Part shown: positions 3,854-43,337 of the stretch, piece by piece
Layout of the letters: every line of letters begins with the position of its first letter
Position numbering within the stretch: the first letter of the stretch is position 1
Source of the DNA: Bartonella sp. WD12.1
GTDB taxonomy: Bacteria > Pseudomonadota > Alphaproteobacteria > Rhizobiales > Rhizobiaceae
Assembly (NCBI RefSeq): GCF_002022415.1
Contig: NZ_MUBG01000001.1
Span: forward strand, 1,508,501 to 1,572,500
Reading direction: 5' to 3'
DNA: 64,000 nt
Made by a program: the position numbers and the translations under genes
The notes under the pieces: generated by a model
Databases searched by the model: none
Told to the model about the DNA's origin: nothing
The model's input: only the letters and a program-made list of their open reading frames with translations

Positions 3854-4401
3854 CGCTTTAATGACCACAAATAACGACGTCTTACAAAACCACTCAAAGA
3901 TAGAAATGATCATTAATAATAAAACAAGGTAAAGCCTATTTGCAAATTACCCCACCCTCACAAACCTCCTATTAAAGCACCTATCACTAAAGTTTAGTCG
4001 ATTGAGCTTGCTAAATAAAAACATGCACTACTAAGTATTAAGTATAAGGTAAGCTTTACTCTGCTATTCCCACCTGCATTATCCATTCCAAGGGCTTTAA
4101 CCTGTGTCTTCATAATACACCCCTCCCCTCATGCCTATAATTTGCATTCCAAACCTTGTACCGTTAACTCCTTAGAAACAGCCTCTTCTTTAAATAAGCG
4201 TTTCACTAAATAAGCATTTCACTAAGAATTGAGAATAAACAAAAGCAACTTAAACTTGCCATAATACATATTTGAAACTGATGACGCAAAATATAATCAA
4301 TTGTAGCTTTAGGCAGAAGCATTCTTATCAATCACTAAAAAGCGATAGTAAAATGCATACCCTTTTATTCCTTAATTCCCTATATTTAACAAACAGTTCT
4401 T
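3854..4401. other. Gene-poor gap with a two-copy tandem repeat
   Basis: No coding region can be supported on either strand. The only structure I see is a 16-nt unit, TAAATAAGCGTTTCAC at 4191-4206, repeated directly as TAAATAAGCATTTCAC at 4207-4222 with one mismatch. It lies between the 3' ends of tlpA and the yihY gene, so it need not contain promoters. Confidence 0.5.
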
Positions 4402-5256
4402 TTATGAATCTGAATTTTGTAAACGAGTACGATAAAACATAATTGCTGCGTTAATCTCACCTCCCAAAATAAAAATCGCACTCAGCATATAAAGAAAAAT
4501 AATAGCAATCATGATAGATGCTAACCCAGCGTAAGTGGACACATAATTAAACCTTGTTAAATAATGTGCAAAAGTAATCGATGCTGCAAACCACAAAAAC
4601 AGTGTCACGATAATTCCTGGTAAAATATCTATCAATTTTCTCTGTTTTGCTGGCAACCATTTATGAACAATCAAAAGACTGATAAATAAAACAACCACTG
4701 CAATTGTATAACGCCATAAACGAATAACACCAATATATTCAACAATAAAGGGAAAATGATTTTGCGTAATTTTTATCAGTAAAGGCGCTAAAACTAATAA
4801 AAAGCTGATAACAGTAATACCGATTGTTCCAATGATTACAAAAAACAAACTCTGAAAACGACAAAAAAACAAACTTCGCTGATCAACAACGCGATAAGCC
4901 TTATTCAAGGCTGCACGTAAAGCCTCTACCCCATTTGAAGCAAAATAAGCCGCCCCAACAAAAGAAAGCGTCAATAAGCCTCTTCGCTGTGTTGTCAAAA
5001 CATTGACGATTTCTTTAGAAAAAGGTTCTGCAATTGCATCTGGCAGCAAGTGCATAAGTGCCTCAATTTTTTGCGGTGTATACGAAAAATCCCAAAAAAA
5101 ACTGGCTAGAGATGCTCCCAAAATACAAAAAGGAAAAAACGCTAAAAGCCCTGAAAGTACGATATGACTTGCAAAAGCACTACCATTATCACGCACATAA
5201 TGGCTTACTGCATTAATAAGAATACGAAAGCTGTAGCACAACACATTTTTTATCAA
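4402..5256 (-). CDS. YihY/BrkB-family inner-membrane protein
   Basis: A 284-residue polytopic membrane protein with about six hydrophobic segments, matching the YihY/virulence factor BrkB family (once misnamed RNase BN). Typical features are the N-terminal amphipathic stretch, the FFPF segment near residue 40, GAAYFASNGVEALRAALNKAY near the middle, and the C-terminal ASIMIAIIFLYMLSAIFILGGEINA. Molecular function is unsettled in the family. It stands alone, with more than 500 bp of noncoding DNA on either side, so context says nothing about its role. The length is normal and no damage is visible. Confidence 0.85.
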   Translation of the reverse strand: MIKNVLCYSFRILINAVSHYVRDNGSAFASHIVLSGLLAFFPFCILGASLASFFWDFSYTPQKIEALMHLLPDAIAEPFSKEIVNVLTTQRRGLLTLSFVGAAYFASNGVEALRAALNKAYRVVDQRSLFFCRFQSLFFVIIGTIGITVISFLLVLAPLLIKITQNHFPFIVEYIGVIRLWRYTIAVVVLFISLLIVHKWLPAKQRKLIDILPGIIVTLFLWFAASITFAHYLTRFNYVSTYAGLASIMIAIIFLYMLSAIFILGGEINAAIMFYRTRLQNSDS

Positions 5257-5772
5257 ATCTTCATACTTTCTGATGACTTTCCCTTTAAGTCTCTTTAAGC
5301 TTTATAAAAATGACCTAAACTTCATAAATGAAAGTTATTCTCGTATAAAACAGATACTTTTTTAAGGATAACAATGATGATAGCTAAATTTAAAAAAACT
5401 ATACTAAAATCAACAATGATAAATCAACAAATTTCATTGATACCTCAAATTGTTAAGATCACTGCTTAACTCCCATGTTATCATTGATAAAAGAGTACTT
5501 CTTCATACACTGTACCCCCAAATATTAAGTAACCTTGTATTTTGTACTTAAATCATATTGTACAATGACCTTTTTGATCTTGATGCAAATTTGGCAATTA
5601 CTCAAAACAAACAATGTCTGCTAGTATTACACGTAATACTACAATCTCATGATCAAAAGCTTTTATGAATTATCGTTTTTTGTCTTTTGATAAAAAAATC
5701 ACCATAAAGAAAAAACATATCTCATAAAATACCCAAGTCCCAAAAACGCTTCAATGTCGATGAAGCCAAATT
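5257..5772. other. Gene-poor gap between yihY and holA
   Basis: About 515 bp, AT-rich, with no supportable gene and no recognisable relic in six frames. It must hold the promoter of the leftward yihY gene near its left end. I see no convincing hairpin-plus-T-run for holA termination. Confidence 0.4.
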
Positions 5773-7685: not shown

Positions 7686-7760
7686 GCGGGTGTAGCTCAG
7701 GGGTAGAGCACAACCTTGCCAAGGTTGGGGTCGTGGGTTCGAATCCCATCGCCCGCTCCA
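7686..7760 (+). tRNA. tRNA-Gly(GCC)
   Basis: A complete cloverleaf: acceptor GCGGGTG pairing with CGCCCGC, D arm GCTC/GAGC, anticodon stem CAACC/GGTTG with loop TTGCCAA giving anticodon GCC, T arm GTGGG/CCCAT with TTCGAAT, discriminator T at 7757 and an encoded CCA at 7758-7760. It reads GGC and GGU glycine codons. It stands alone between two long noncoding gaps. Confidence 0.97.
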
Positions 7761-14152: not shown

Positions 14153-15289
14153 ATGCAAACCAAAATTGTTACTGTCAAACTGAATAAACATTGTTATGAT
14201 ATCGTTATTGGCTCAGGTTTAATTGCACAAGCAGTTTCAAAGATTAAGCATTATTTGCATCAAAAGAGTTCTCATCAAAAAATACGTTTAGCTATTGTTA
14301 CAGATAAAAATGTTGCTGCTTTTCATTTGAACACATTGCAGACAAAATTAGCAGAAAATGAAATCTACACGGTCCCTATTATCGTAGAAGCAGGAGAACA
14401 ATCAAAGTCGTTTCCAATTTTGCAAAATGTGATCGATAAAATTCTTGTCGCTCGTTTAGAAAGAGGCGATAGCATTATTGCTTTGGGGGGCGGTGTTATT
14501 GGTGATCTTGCAGGATTTGCGGCAAGTATTATACGTCGAGGTATGCATTTGATTCAAATGCCTACAACACTTCTAGCACAAATTGATTCATCGGTTGGTG
14601 GAAAAACCGGAATCAATAGCCCGTATGGTAAAAATCTCATCGGTACCTTTTATCAACCCCAATGCGTTATTGCTGACATTGATGTTCTCAATACATTACC
14701 CTCACGCGAATTTCGTGCTGGTTATGCAGAAATGGTTAAATATGGCCTCATTAATCAGCCTCATTTTTTTGAATGGCTTGAAAAAAATTGGCAAAAAGTT
14801 TTTTCCAAGGGCCCAATACAAATAGAAGCTATTGCTCGCTCATGTCAATTTAAAGCCGATATTGTAGCTCACGATGAATATGAAACAGGCCAACGCGCAT
14901 TGCTAAATCTTGGTCATACATTTGGGCATATGCTTGAAACAGCAACCACTTATGATTCAAACCGTTTAATCCATGGTGAAGCTGTAGCTATCGGAACAAT
15001 TTTAGCCCACCAATTTTCTGAACAATTAAACTTAATCAACCCTACAATAACACAACGTATTGAAACACATTTTAAAACCGTTGGTTTACCAACACAACTA
15101 CAAGATATCCCCGGCAAACTTCCAGATGCCGAAACACTTATGACCTTTATTGCCCAAGATAAAAAAGTTTCGCAAAATAATTTAACTTTTATCCTAACAC
15201 GCGGACTGGGCCAATCATTTATCGCTAAAAATGTTTCACCAAATGCAGTCTTGACTTTCCTAAAACAAAAATTAGTGAAACCTGATTAA
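14153..15289 (+). CDS. aroB: 3-dehydroquinate synthase
   Basis: Cyclises DAHP to 3-dehydroquinate using NAD and a divalent metal, step two of the chorismate pathway. At 378 residues it has the full family marks: [41 protein letters not shown], and the metal ligands around [11 protein letters not shown] and HGEAVAIG. Downstream of aroK in the same operon. The tRNA-Arg(CCU) gene follows after about 60 bp of AT-rich DNA. Confidence 0.96.
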
Positions 15290-15350: not shown

Positions 15351-15662
15351 GTCTGCGTAGCTCAGTAGGATAGAGCACAGGATTCCTAAATAAATTGGGC
15401 GCTTTGAGGAGAAATCCTTAAAGTGGATCTGCTCAAATTCGGGGAAAGCTTCACAGGAAACTGTATGCCAATCCCGAGCCAAGCCTGTTTTAAAGAAAAC
15501 AAGGAAGGTGTAGAGACTGAACGGGCAGCGCCTAAAAAGTGTATACTTCAAGGTGAAGAGACAGTCCAGACCACAAACAGCTTACAATAACAAAGACTGG
15601 CGATGAAAATCGAAGTGGTATGAATCCTGGGGTCGTGGGTTCGAATCCCGCCGTAGACACCA
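15351..15662 (+). tRNA. tRNA-Arg(CCU), interrupted by a group I intron
   Basis: Two exons, 15351-15387 and 15623-15659, plus encoded CCA at 15660-15662. Joined they give a clean 74-nt cloverleaf: acceptor GTCTGCG/CGTAGAC, D stem GCTC/GAGC, anticodon stem CAGGA/TCCTG with loop TTCCTAA (anticodon CCT), T stem GTGGG/CCCGC with TTCGAAT, and discriminator A. The 235-nt insert sits in the anticodon loop between T36 and A37, directly after the anticodon. It decodes AGG. A tRNA search without intron modelling will miss it or call it broken. Intron-bearing tRNA-Arg(CCU) is known from Agrobacterium. Confidence 0.95.
15388..15622 (+). ncRNA. Self-splicing group I intron (tRNA-Arg type, IC3-like)
   Basis: All core helices can be drawn. 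P1: internal guide GGG 15397-15399 with exon CCT 15385-15387, including the U-G splice-site pair. P2: 11 bp, 15400-15410/15415-15425, GAAA loop. P3: CTGCTC 15429-15434 with GGGCAG 15523-15528. P4: TCGGG 15439-15443 with CCCGA 15473-15477. P5: GAAA loop 15457-15460. P6: TGTTTT 15486-15491 with AAAACA 15496-15501. P7: GACT 15515-15518 with AGTC 15563-15566. P8: AAGT/ACTT 15537-15548. P9: ACCAC 15570-15574 with GTGGT 15615-15619, plus hairpin CGAT-GAAA-ATCG 15601-15612. The last base is omega-G at 15622. The core closely resembles the Azoarcus tRNA-Ile intron (CAAATTCGG, CCGAGCCAAGC, AAGGTGTAGAGACT). There is no homing endonuclease. Confidence 0.94.
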
Positions 15663-41584: not shown

Positions 41585-42489
41585 CTTTGTAAACGCCGAC
41601 AAATATCATCTAATTCTTCTAATGAAGAATAATGTATTTTTAAATCACCACCATCTTTACTGTGTCGAATGGCTACTTTCATTCCGATCATATCAGTCAA
41701 CAATTTTTCTAAAGATTTTGTTTCCATATCTTTTTCCACTAAAGTTCGTTTTTTTACTTTAGGATTTGCCTGTTCATGTGTCAGCACTTCTGCCTGACGA
41801 ACAGAGAGTCCTTCATGAATAATCTTTTCAGCTAAATCTTGTGGATTGTTGACGGTAATGAGGCAACGTGCATGACCAGCTGAAAGTTGGCCATCAATTA
41901 AAAATTTTTGTACTTCTGGTGGAAGTTTTAATAAACGAAGAGTATTTGTAACATAGCTTCGGCTTTTTCCAATAACTTGTGCCAAATCTGCCTGAGTATA
42001 ACCATGTTCATTAAGCAACATTTCATATCCCATTGCTTCTTCAATAGGATTAAGATCAGCACGTTGAATATTCTCAATAATAGCTAATTCTAAAGCTGTC
42101 TTATCATCTACATCGCGAATAATAACGGGTAATTGACTTAAATTGGCTCGTTGTGCAGCACGCCACCGCCGCTCACCAGCGATTAATTCAAACCGACCAG
42201 GGTGATGAGGTGAAGGCCTTACAAGAACAGGCTGAACAACACCATGTTGACGAATTGACTGAGCCAAATTTTCAAGTTCTAAATCCGTAAAGTGGCGTCG
42301 TGGATTATTGGGATTACGTGAAATAAGTTCAATAGATACCAACCGTTCAGAAACGATAGAATCCATATTTGACTTCATTGTGAATCTCACAGGATTTAAT
42401 AAATGTGCAGGATCACTATTTAAACTGACATCTCCGATTAGTGCTGCTAATCCACGACCTAGTCTTTTTTTTGATTGATCATCATTCAT
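41581..42489 (-). CDS. parB: Chromosome partitioning protein ParB
   Basis: CTP-dependent parS-binding clamp that loads at the origin region and drives chromosome segregation. Starts MNDDQSKKRLGRGLAALIGD at ATG 42489; the frame is open further back but homologues begin here. Visible: NPRRHF, GERRWRAAQRA (the CTP/arginine motif), the helix-turn-helix YTQADLAQVIGKSRSYVTNTLRLL, and a C-terminal dimerisation helix. About 302 residues, full length. Cognate parS at 43922 and a likely second site at 45888. Confidence 0.95.
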   Translation of the reverse strand: MNDDQSKKRLGRGLAALIGDVSLNSDPAHLLNPVRFTMKSNMDSIVSERLVSIELISRNPNNPRRHFTDLELENLAQSIRQHGVVQPVLVRPSPHHPGRFELIAGERRWRAAQRANLSQLPVIIRDVDDKTALELAIIENIQRADLNPIEEAMGYEMLLNEHGYTQADLAQVIGKSRSYVTNTLRLLKLPPEVQKFLIDGQLSAGHARCLITVNNPQDLAEKIIHEGLSVRQAEVLTHEQANPKVKKRTLVEKDMETKSLEKLLTDMIGMKVAIRHSKDGGDLKIHYSSLEELDDICRRLQS

Positions 42490-42539
42490 GATTCTACTCT
42501 TTGAGCTAACTTCACAATAAATTACTTTTCTCACACTTT

Positions 42540-43337
42540 TTAAGCAGCAGTTTTTGCTTGTTTTTCGCGCTGAATAATTTCCGTTGCTAGTCGTAAATAA
42601 GCCTGACTACCAGCACATTTAAGATCATAAAGTAATGCTGGTTTACCAAAAGAAGGAGCTTCAGAAACACGTACATTACGTGGAATAACAGTACGATAAA
42701 CCTTCTCTCCCATAAAAGAGCGTACATCTTCAACAACTTGATTGGAAAGATTATTACGTCCATCATACATCGTTAAAACAATACCTTGAATTTCTAGAGA
42801 TGGATTTAGAGCATACCGTACTTGTTCTACCGTTTCAAGCAATTGGCTTAAACCTTCAAGCGCTAAAAATTCGCACTGCATTGGTACCAAAACAGAATCT
42901 GCCGCCCCCATAGCATTTAATGTTAAAAGATTAAGTGAAGGAGGACAATCAATCAAAATATAACTGAATTTTTGAGACACCATCTGATCATCACACAGAG
43001 CTTTGCGTAGCCGCTGAATACGGTCTTGCGATGAAGCAATTTCCATTTCAACACCTAAAAGATCAAGTGTAGAAGGTACAATATGCAAATTAGGCACAAC
43101 TGTTTTTAAAGCAGCATCTACCACAGAGATTTCAGAAATTAAAACATCATAAGAGGATAAAAGACGACTATTACGATCAATTCCAAGTCCTGTACTTGCA
43201 TTACCTTGTGGATCAATATCCATAATAAGAATATTTTCACCTATAGCTGCCAAAGCTGTTGCAAGGTTAATAGCTGTCGTTGTCTTACCCACCCCACCCT
43301 TTTGGTTTGCAATAGCGATAATTCGTGTTTCGCTCAT
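42540..43337 (-). CDS. parA: Chromosome partitioning ATPase ParA
   Basis: Walker-type ATPase that forms the nucleoid-bound gradient pulling ParB-parS apart. 265 residues: deviant Walker A KGGVGKTTTAINLA, the DIDPQGN switch, DCPPSLNLLTLNAM and PRNVRVSEAPSFGKP. Not a plasmid-type ParA: it has no N-terminal HTH. It lies 6 bp after the rsmG remnant and 50 bp before parB. Confidence 0.97.
   Translation of the reverse strand: MSETRIIAIANQKGGVGKTTTAINLATALAAIGENILIMDIDPQGNASTGLGIDRNSRLLSSYDVLISEISVVDAALKTVVPNLHIVPSTLDLLGVEMEIASSQDRIQRLRKALCDDQMVSQKFSYILIDCPPSLNLLTLNAMGAADSVLVPMQCEFLALEGLSQLLETVEQVRYALNPSLEIQGIVLTMYDGRNNLSNQVVEDVRSFMGEKVYRTVIPRNVRVSEAPSFGKPALLYDLKCAGSQAYLRLATEIIQREKQAKTAA

Follow-up and report, generated by a model that had tools for sequence, protein, structure and literature searches.

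A functional, self-splicing group I intron almost certainly splits the tRNA-Arg(CCU) gene in the 64,000-nucleotide stretch of Bartonella sp. WD12.1 DNA analyzed here (hereafter, the window), the single gene of this kind found in the genome. The gene occupies positions 15351–15662 of the forward strand, with exons at 15351–15387 and 15623–15662 that enclose an intron (15388–15622) of exactly 235 nt. An earlier note, made from the sequence alone, had proposed that the gene is split at this place by a complete group I intron, and the Rfam model RF00028, the exon boundaries, and comparative data all bear this out.

Gene anatomy, intron fold, and splicing

With introns allowed, or when given the joined exons, ARAGORN called tRNA-Arg(cct)—the result anticipated for a tRNA search on the joined exons—and the tRNA rebuilt in this way has an encoded CCA end. 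Run without the intron option, the program reported no tRNA at 15351–15662 and only a tRNA-Gly at 7686 in the entire window; because the gene is split by an intron, tRNA scans of this kind miss tRNA-Arg(CCU) in Bartonella. The earlier description of a perfect cloverleaf stands insofar as the exons do rebuild tRNA-Arg(CCU), yet the acceptor stem and the T stem each contain a G-U pair, which is ordinary. The insertion point lies directly after the anticodon, as is characteristic of the alphaproteobacterial intron family in this tRNA. The features of the locus are as follows (the helices refer to a structure drawn by hand, and intron counts to the alignments described below).

14153–15289, +: open reading frame of 378 aa, conserved upstream neighbor, presumably aroB from reading of its sequence
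15351–15387, +: 5′ exon of tRNA-Arg(CCU), with the anticodon CCT as its last three bases (ARAGORN, joined exons)
15388–15622, +: group I intron, 235 nt (RF00028, 66.8 bits; exon boundaries; reading frames)
15385–15399, +: P1, exon CCT 15385–15387 with guide GGG 15397–15399, U-G at the splice site (all three pairs kept in 77/77 introns)
15394–15396, +: P10 strand ATT, pairing with 3′ exon AAT 15623–15625 (77/77 introns)
15400–15425, +: P2 hairpin, 11 pairs, GAAA loop 15411–15414 (both-sided changes in 10/11 pairs)
15429–15434, +: P3 5′ strand, 3′ strand at 15523–15528 (drawn structure, 77-intron alignment)
15439–15477, +: P4 (15439–15444 with 15472–15477) and P5 (15448–15456 with 15461–15468) (drawn structure, alignment)
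15478–15509, +: P6 (15478–15480 with 15507–15509) and P6a (15484–15491 with 15496–15504) (drawn structure, alignment)
15515–15519, +: P7 5′ strand, 3′ strand at 15562–15566, expected guanosine-binding helix (invariant, 77/77)
15529–15555, +: P8 hairpin (both-sided changes in 7/8 pairs)
15570–15619, +: P9 with P9.1 and P9.2, GAAA loop 15605–15608 (drawn structure, alignment)
15622, +: terminal omega-G (last intron base G in 78/78)
15623–15662, +: 3′ exon of tRNA-Arg(CCU), encoded CCA (ARAGORN)

The Rfam group I model, likewise suggested beforehand as a check, matched positions 15378–15580 on the forward strand with 66.8 bits (E 9.6e-15) against a gathering cut-off of 50, and this was the sole RF00028 match in the whole genome at E 0.001 or better. 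The intron RNA has a predicted folding energy of −65.1 kcal/mol (z −3.46), a value that none of 200 shuffled sequences reached. The P1–P9 fold with omega-G proposed for the 235-nt insert could be written out on the sequence in full, and P10 along with it, with standard pairs at all 71 positions of the hand-drawn P1–P10 structure. No homing endonuclease gene was recognized in the window intron: a length of 235 nt and a longest stop-free stretch of 64 codons leave no room for an ordinary one, and introns across the genus measure 220–278 nt. Simple sigma-70 promoter and terminator scans around the gene were empty, which is weak evidence since alphaproteobacterial promoters lie outside what these scans model.

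To compare the fold across species, we aligned 77 introns, comprising 70 distinct sequences from 71 Bartonella introns (two are identical) and seven from other genera; two further introns (L092 and L097), assigned to tRNA-Arg(CCU) by eye and misread by ARAGORN, were left out. Pairing was kept in 94.0% of cells as opposed to 29.9–46.5% when partners were slid by one to three columns, a comparison that by itself favors the drawn version because the window sequence served as the template for drawing it. Changes on both sides of a pair occurred in 36 of the 71 pairs (shuffled mean 21.4; slid 15–22) and in 313 cells (shuffled mean 89.5; slid 47–127), with none of 500 shuffles as high. P1, P4, P7, and P10 are invariant and P3 shows one-sided changes only, so the catalytic core yields no two-sided covariation; this restraint fits the catalytic roles of these helices. 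P3 and P7, which make up the core pseudoknot, are paired in 100% of cells, and the weakest helix as aligned is P6a, with 76.9% and 66.7% of cells paired. A degenerate core, named in the earlier note as a sign that would speak against its reading, is therefore not what the 77 introns contain: the core is conserved.

Conservation extends to both splice sites. The 5′ exon ends in GGATTCCT in 78/78 introns, the U-G pair at the 5′ splice site is present in 77/77, and G is the final intron base in 78/78; the proposal that the anticodon CCT itself serves as the 5′ splice-site target of the guide GGG is upheld by the retention of all three P1 pairs throughout the alignment. In introns of subgroup IC3, GNRA tetraloops occupy L2 and L9 and have their receptors in P8 and P5. 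Of the three GAAA loops put forward as IC3-like, those of L2 (GAAA in 71/77, GGAA in 6/77) and L9 (GAAA in 76/77) are conserved, but not that of L5, where by alignment column GAAA occurs in only 9/77 introns and is thus not part of the conserved layout.

By analogy with group I introns in general, for which the order of the steps is established, we infer the following course of splicing in this genome. Once the transcript is made, the intron would fold, and P1 would form between the guide GGG and the anticodon CCU. Attack after U36 of the anticodon would come from a guanosine held in P7—the guanosine-binding site of group I introns—and the 3′ OH thereby released on the 5′ exon would go on to attack after omega-G, with the AAU of the 3′ exon aligned against the AUU of the guide in P10. 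Joining of the exons would give tRNA-Arg(CCU).

Besides the split gene, a genome search with RF00005 listed 38 tRNA genes, among whose anticodons (read in two sets, 30 + 8) are Arg UCU, CCG, and ACG and no second CCU. BLAST of the joined exons against the genome returned the two halves of the split gene as perfect matches of 39 and 40 bases and no second copy, the next best matches being 87% over 61 bases (tRNA-Met) and an identical stretch of 25 bases (tRNA-Pro). A second intact tRNA-Arg(CCU), which the earlier note had considered telling against a functional intron, was thus found neither among the 38 genes nor by the exon search. tRNA-Ile(GAU) and tRNA-Ala(UGC) are missing from the 38 genes, so this list may be incomplete. 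Another Bartonella genome (G002) also has 38 listed tRNA genes and neither of these two among those read (8 of the 38 being mostly unread); in both genomes, the missing genes perhaps lie in unassembled rRNA stretches.

Could the intron instead be decayed and the tRNA gene dead, with AGG read through wobble by tRNA-Arg(UCU) and the CCU gene no longer needed? A tRNA-Arg(UCU) gene does exist in the genome, and AGG is rare, accounting for 20 of 687 arginine codons in the window's mechanically called ORFs of 250 codons or more. Against this, 71/71 Bartonella genomes have retained the anticodon loop, splice sites, and catalytic core, peripheral helices carry compensatory changes, and the ortholog of B. 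bacilliformis splices (PMC7717549), which together render a dead gene extremely improbable and leave a functional, self-splicing intron as the preferred reading.

Distribution and history of the intron

The comparison with other Bartonella proposed in the earlier note placed the intron at the same site throughout: in 71/71 Bartonella species genomes (1.4–2.9 Mb), ARAGORN found tRNA-Arg(cct) interrupted after the anticodon by an intron of 220–278 nt. RF00028 alone detected the intron in 70 of the 71 genomes, in 60 of them over the cut-off. The one blank, in G002 (24 of 133 candidates scored), had the appearance of an intron loss; this was rejected as a filter artefact, given that the exon halves lie ~230 nt apart and a 232-nt intron is present between them. 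Compared with the B. melophagi intron, that of the window shows 98% identity. The longest Bartonella introns, at 278 nt (G063) and 253 nt (G047), are extended chiefly in the P6a loop.

Counting remnants, 67/71 Bartonella genomes have an aroB match no more than 450 nt upstream of the split tRNA. In at least one of them (G037), aroB is reduced to two short matches with internal stop codons beside an intact split tRNA, which is a case of a decaying shikimate gene next to a conserved intron. Four genomes (G002, G042, G046, and G063) have no aroB match within this distance while the tRNA and its intron remain, and in G002 no aroB match was found anywhere in the genome.

The absence of losses in these 71 genomes of 1.4–2.9 Mb, together with the lack of a backup gene among those found in the genome of the window, could be read as domestication, with a splicing rate responsive to GTP, magnesium, and temperature setting the supply of tRNA-Arg(CCU), such that the intron was never lost in the Bartonella examined. 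Plain inheritance without a mechanism for removal explains this retention equally well, and we consider domestication very unlikely. A similarly slim chance attaches to the extension of this idea, in which splicing would gate tRNA-Arg(CCU) supply and hence AGG translation under host or vector conditions, and would for that reason be kept in small genomes.

Outside the genus, the picture is patchy. In a sample of 394 genomes of the window's family, the intron pattern occurred in 36 (all eight Bartonella sampled and 28 others), corresponding to 20 of 109 genera, and a strict pattern for the uninterrupted gene in 30, none of them Bartonella; the two lists, checked by eye, do not overlap, and the 328 genomes that match neither pattern cannot be classed. 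RF00028 gave matches in 38/394 family genomes (14 over the cut-off), with tRNA-Leu introns included in this count. Among the matches listed, those with names fall into Hyphomicrobiales, Rhodobacterales, Acetobacterales, and Rhodospirillales. One record from outside the phylum, from Poribacteria (L200), fits the search pattern; no tRNA was found there, and the match looks like chance.

Scanning named records gave at least 118 stretches, 9 of the 118, the Poribacteria match L200 among them, being dropped before tree building as the script found no 3′ end. The resulting tree holds 110 introns—109 from named records among the matches listed, plus that of the window—with all rows from one phylum. 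Its members, from Bartonella, Agrobacterium, Rhizobium, Acetobacteraceae, Rhodobacterales, and others, could be aligned with one another, which speaks for their homology. All 34 Bartonellaceae rows fall into a single clade (support 97/94; recovered in 96% of 200 bootstrap trees), within which the window copy groups with B. melophagi and then with B. bacilliformis. Rows from Acetobacteraceae, Rhizobiaceae, and Paracoccaceae do not form single clades, and long end branches lead to eight of the rows from other genera than Bartonella.

These data bear on whether the intron was acquired recently and still moves between species. Its patchiness in the family (36/394 with the intron, 30/394 uninterrupted, 328 unclassed) and the scatter of Acetobacteraceae, Rhizobiaceae, and Paracoccaceae rows in the wider tree are in keeping with such mobility; within Bartonella, however, the intron is found in 71/71 genomes, adjoins aroB or a remnant in 67/71, and is monophyletic, and it lacks a long ORF and has no match in the phage collection, leaving a phage origin unsupported. 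Recent mobility in this genus thus appears highly improbable. The single Bartonella clade favors inheritance of one ancestral copy and, judging from the sequences compared, the most likely history is that this copy was passed vertically through Bartonella without a homing ORF. Fixation in all 71 genomes of the genus, next to the patchy family sample, makes for a tidy case in which to study mobility loss and long-term vertical inheritance.

A related intron on enterobacterial plasmids

As a by-product, we came across a tRNA-Leu(UAA) gene on enterobacterial plasmids, interrupted by a group I intron of 211 nt, which deserves more attention than the main finding. Its RF00028 score of 43.1 bits lies under the cut-off of 50.

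LR890662.1 (L061), 3964–4260: complete tRNA-Leu(UAA) gene with intron; also in L327 and L328, at about 5001–5299

Its neighbors are aac(3)-IId and the gene of a small ATPase, in a stretch flanked by IS26. Copies covering at least 80% of the tRNA gene turn up in 1257 of 72,556 plasmid records, as well as in 624 of the 5426 complete E. coli genomes. Neither of the two E. coli records inspected annotates the gene, nor do the matches listed; blank annotations in the plasmid collection say nothing, as this collection lists no RNA genes. In a set of literature matches for this stretch, 'group I intron' goes unmentioned in the 10 of 14 that were listed.

The closest chromosomal relatives found are a locus (L089) in a genome of the window's own family, at 87% over 471 nt, and another genome of the same class, at 85% over 301 nt (33/398 genomes matched). 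On account of these relatives, the source of the plasmid stretch is likely alphaproteobacterial, and the nearest chromosomal relatives found may mark the source of the aac(3)-IId resistance segment. At L089 itself (G409, 1281–1779), a tRNA-Leu(UAA) gene with a group I intron is accompanied by a second 5′ tRNA-Leu-like start ~200 nt upstream, and this doubled start might have been left by an integration or duplication event.

Comparison with known introns

The plasmid-borne tRNA-Leu(UAA) intron is ~72% identical to the window intron over 175–187 bases. The alphaproteobacterial introns of tRNA-Leu(UAA) differ from it in interrupting another tRNA, in their insertion after the first anticodon base, and in their guide. 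The IC3 intron in the tRNA-Ile(CAU) gene of Azoarcus is compact, inserted in the anticodon loop, and has GNRA loops on P2 and P9; it shares this general description with the window intron, as the earlier note had remarked of its layout, and sits in a different tRNA.

Closer relatives belong to the alphaproteobacterial family of tRNA-Arg(CCU) introns, reportedly first described in Agrobacterium tumefaciens. Named Agrobacterium genomes among the matches listed fit the window pattern, with insertion into tRNA-Arg(CCU) after the anticodon. Peripheral loops vary in length and sequence among these relatives, and the Bartonella copies form a clade of their own.

Whether such an intron had been reported in Bartonella was left aside in the earlier note. 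It has been: BbgpI of B. bacilliformis lies in an unannotated tRNA-Arg(CCU) gene at c42404-42711, is spliced in vivo and self-splices in vitro, and was assigned to a family for which Paquin 1999 and Reinhold-Hurek and Shub 1992 are cited, all according to a 2020 report (PMC7717549), which was alone among the papers listed in pairing 'group I intron' with 'Bartonella' in the abstract. In one of the 71 genomes (G007), the copy sits at about 42403–42709, no more than two bases from the published position, and this genome is therefore probably B. bacilliformis. The window intron shares with BbgpI the host gene, the flanking CCT as published, the fold class, and the genus, and 206 of 236 aligned columns are identical between it and the copy in B. 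bacilliformis Ver097. The two differ in species, and splicing of the window intron is predicted from that of its ortholog. The intron is already known in the genus and, as a discovery, ordinary; to the account of BbgpI we add its occurrence in each of the 71 species genomes compared here, the finding of no second tRNA-Arg(CCU) copy in this genome, and the correction concerning L5.
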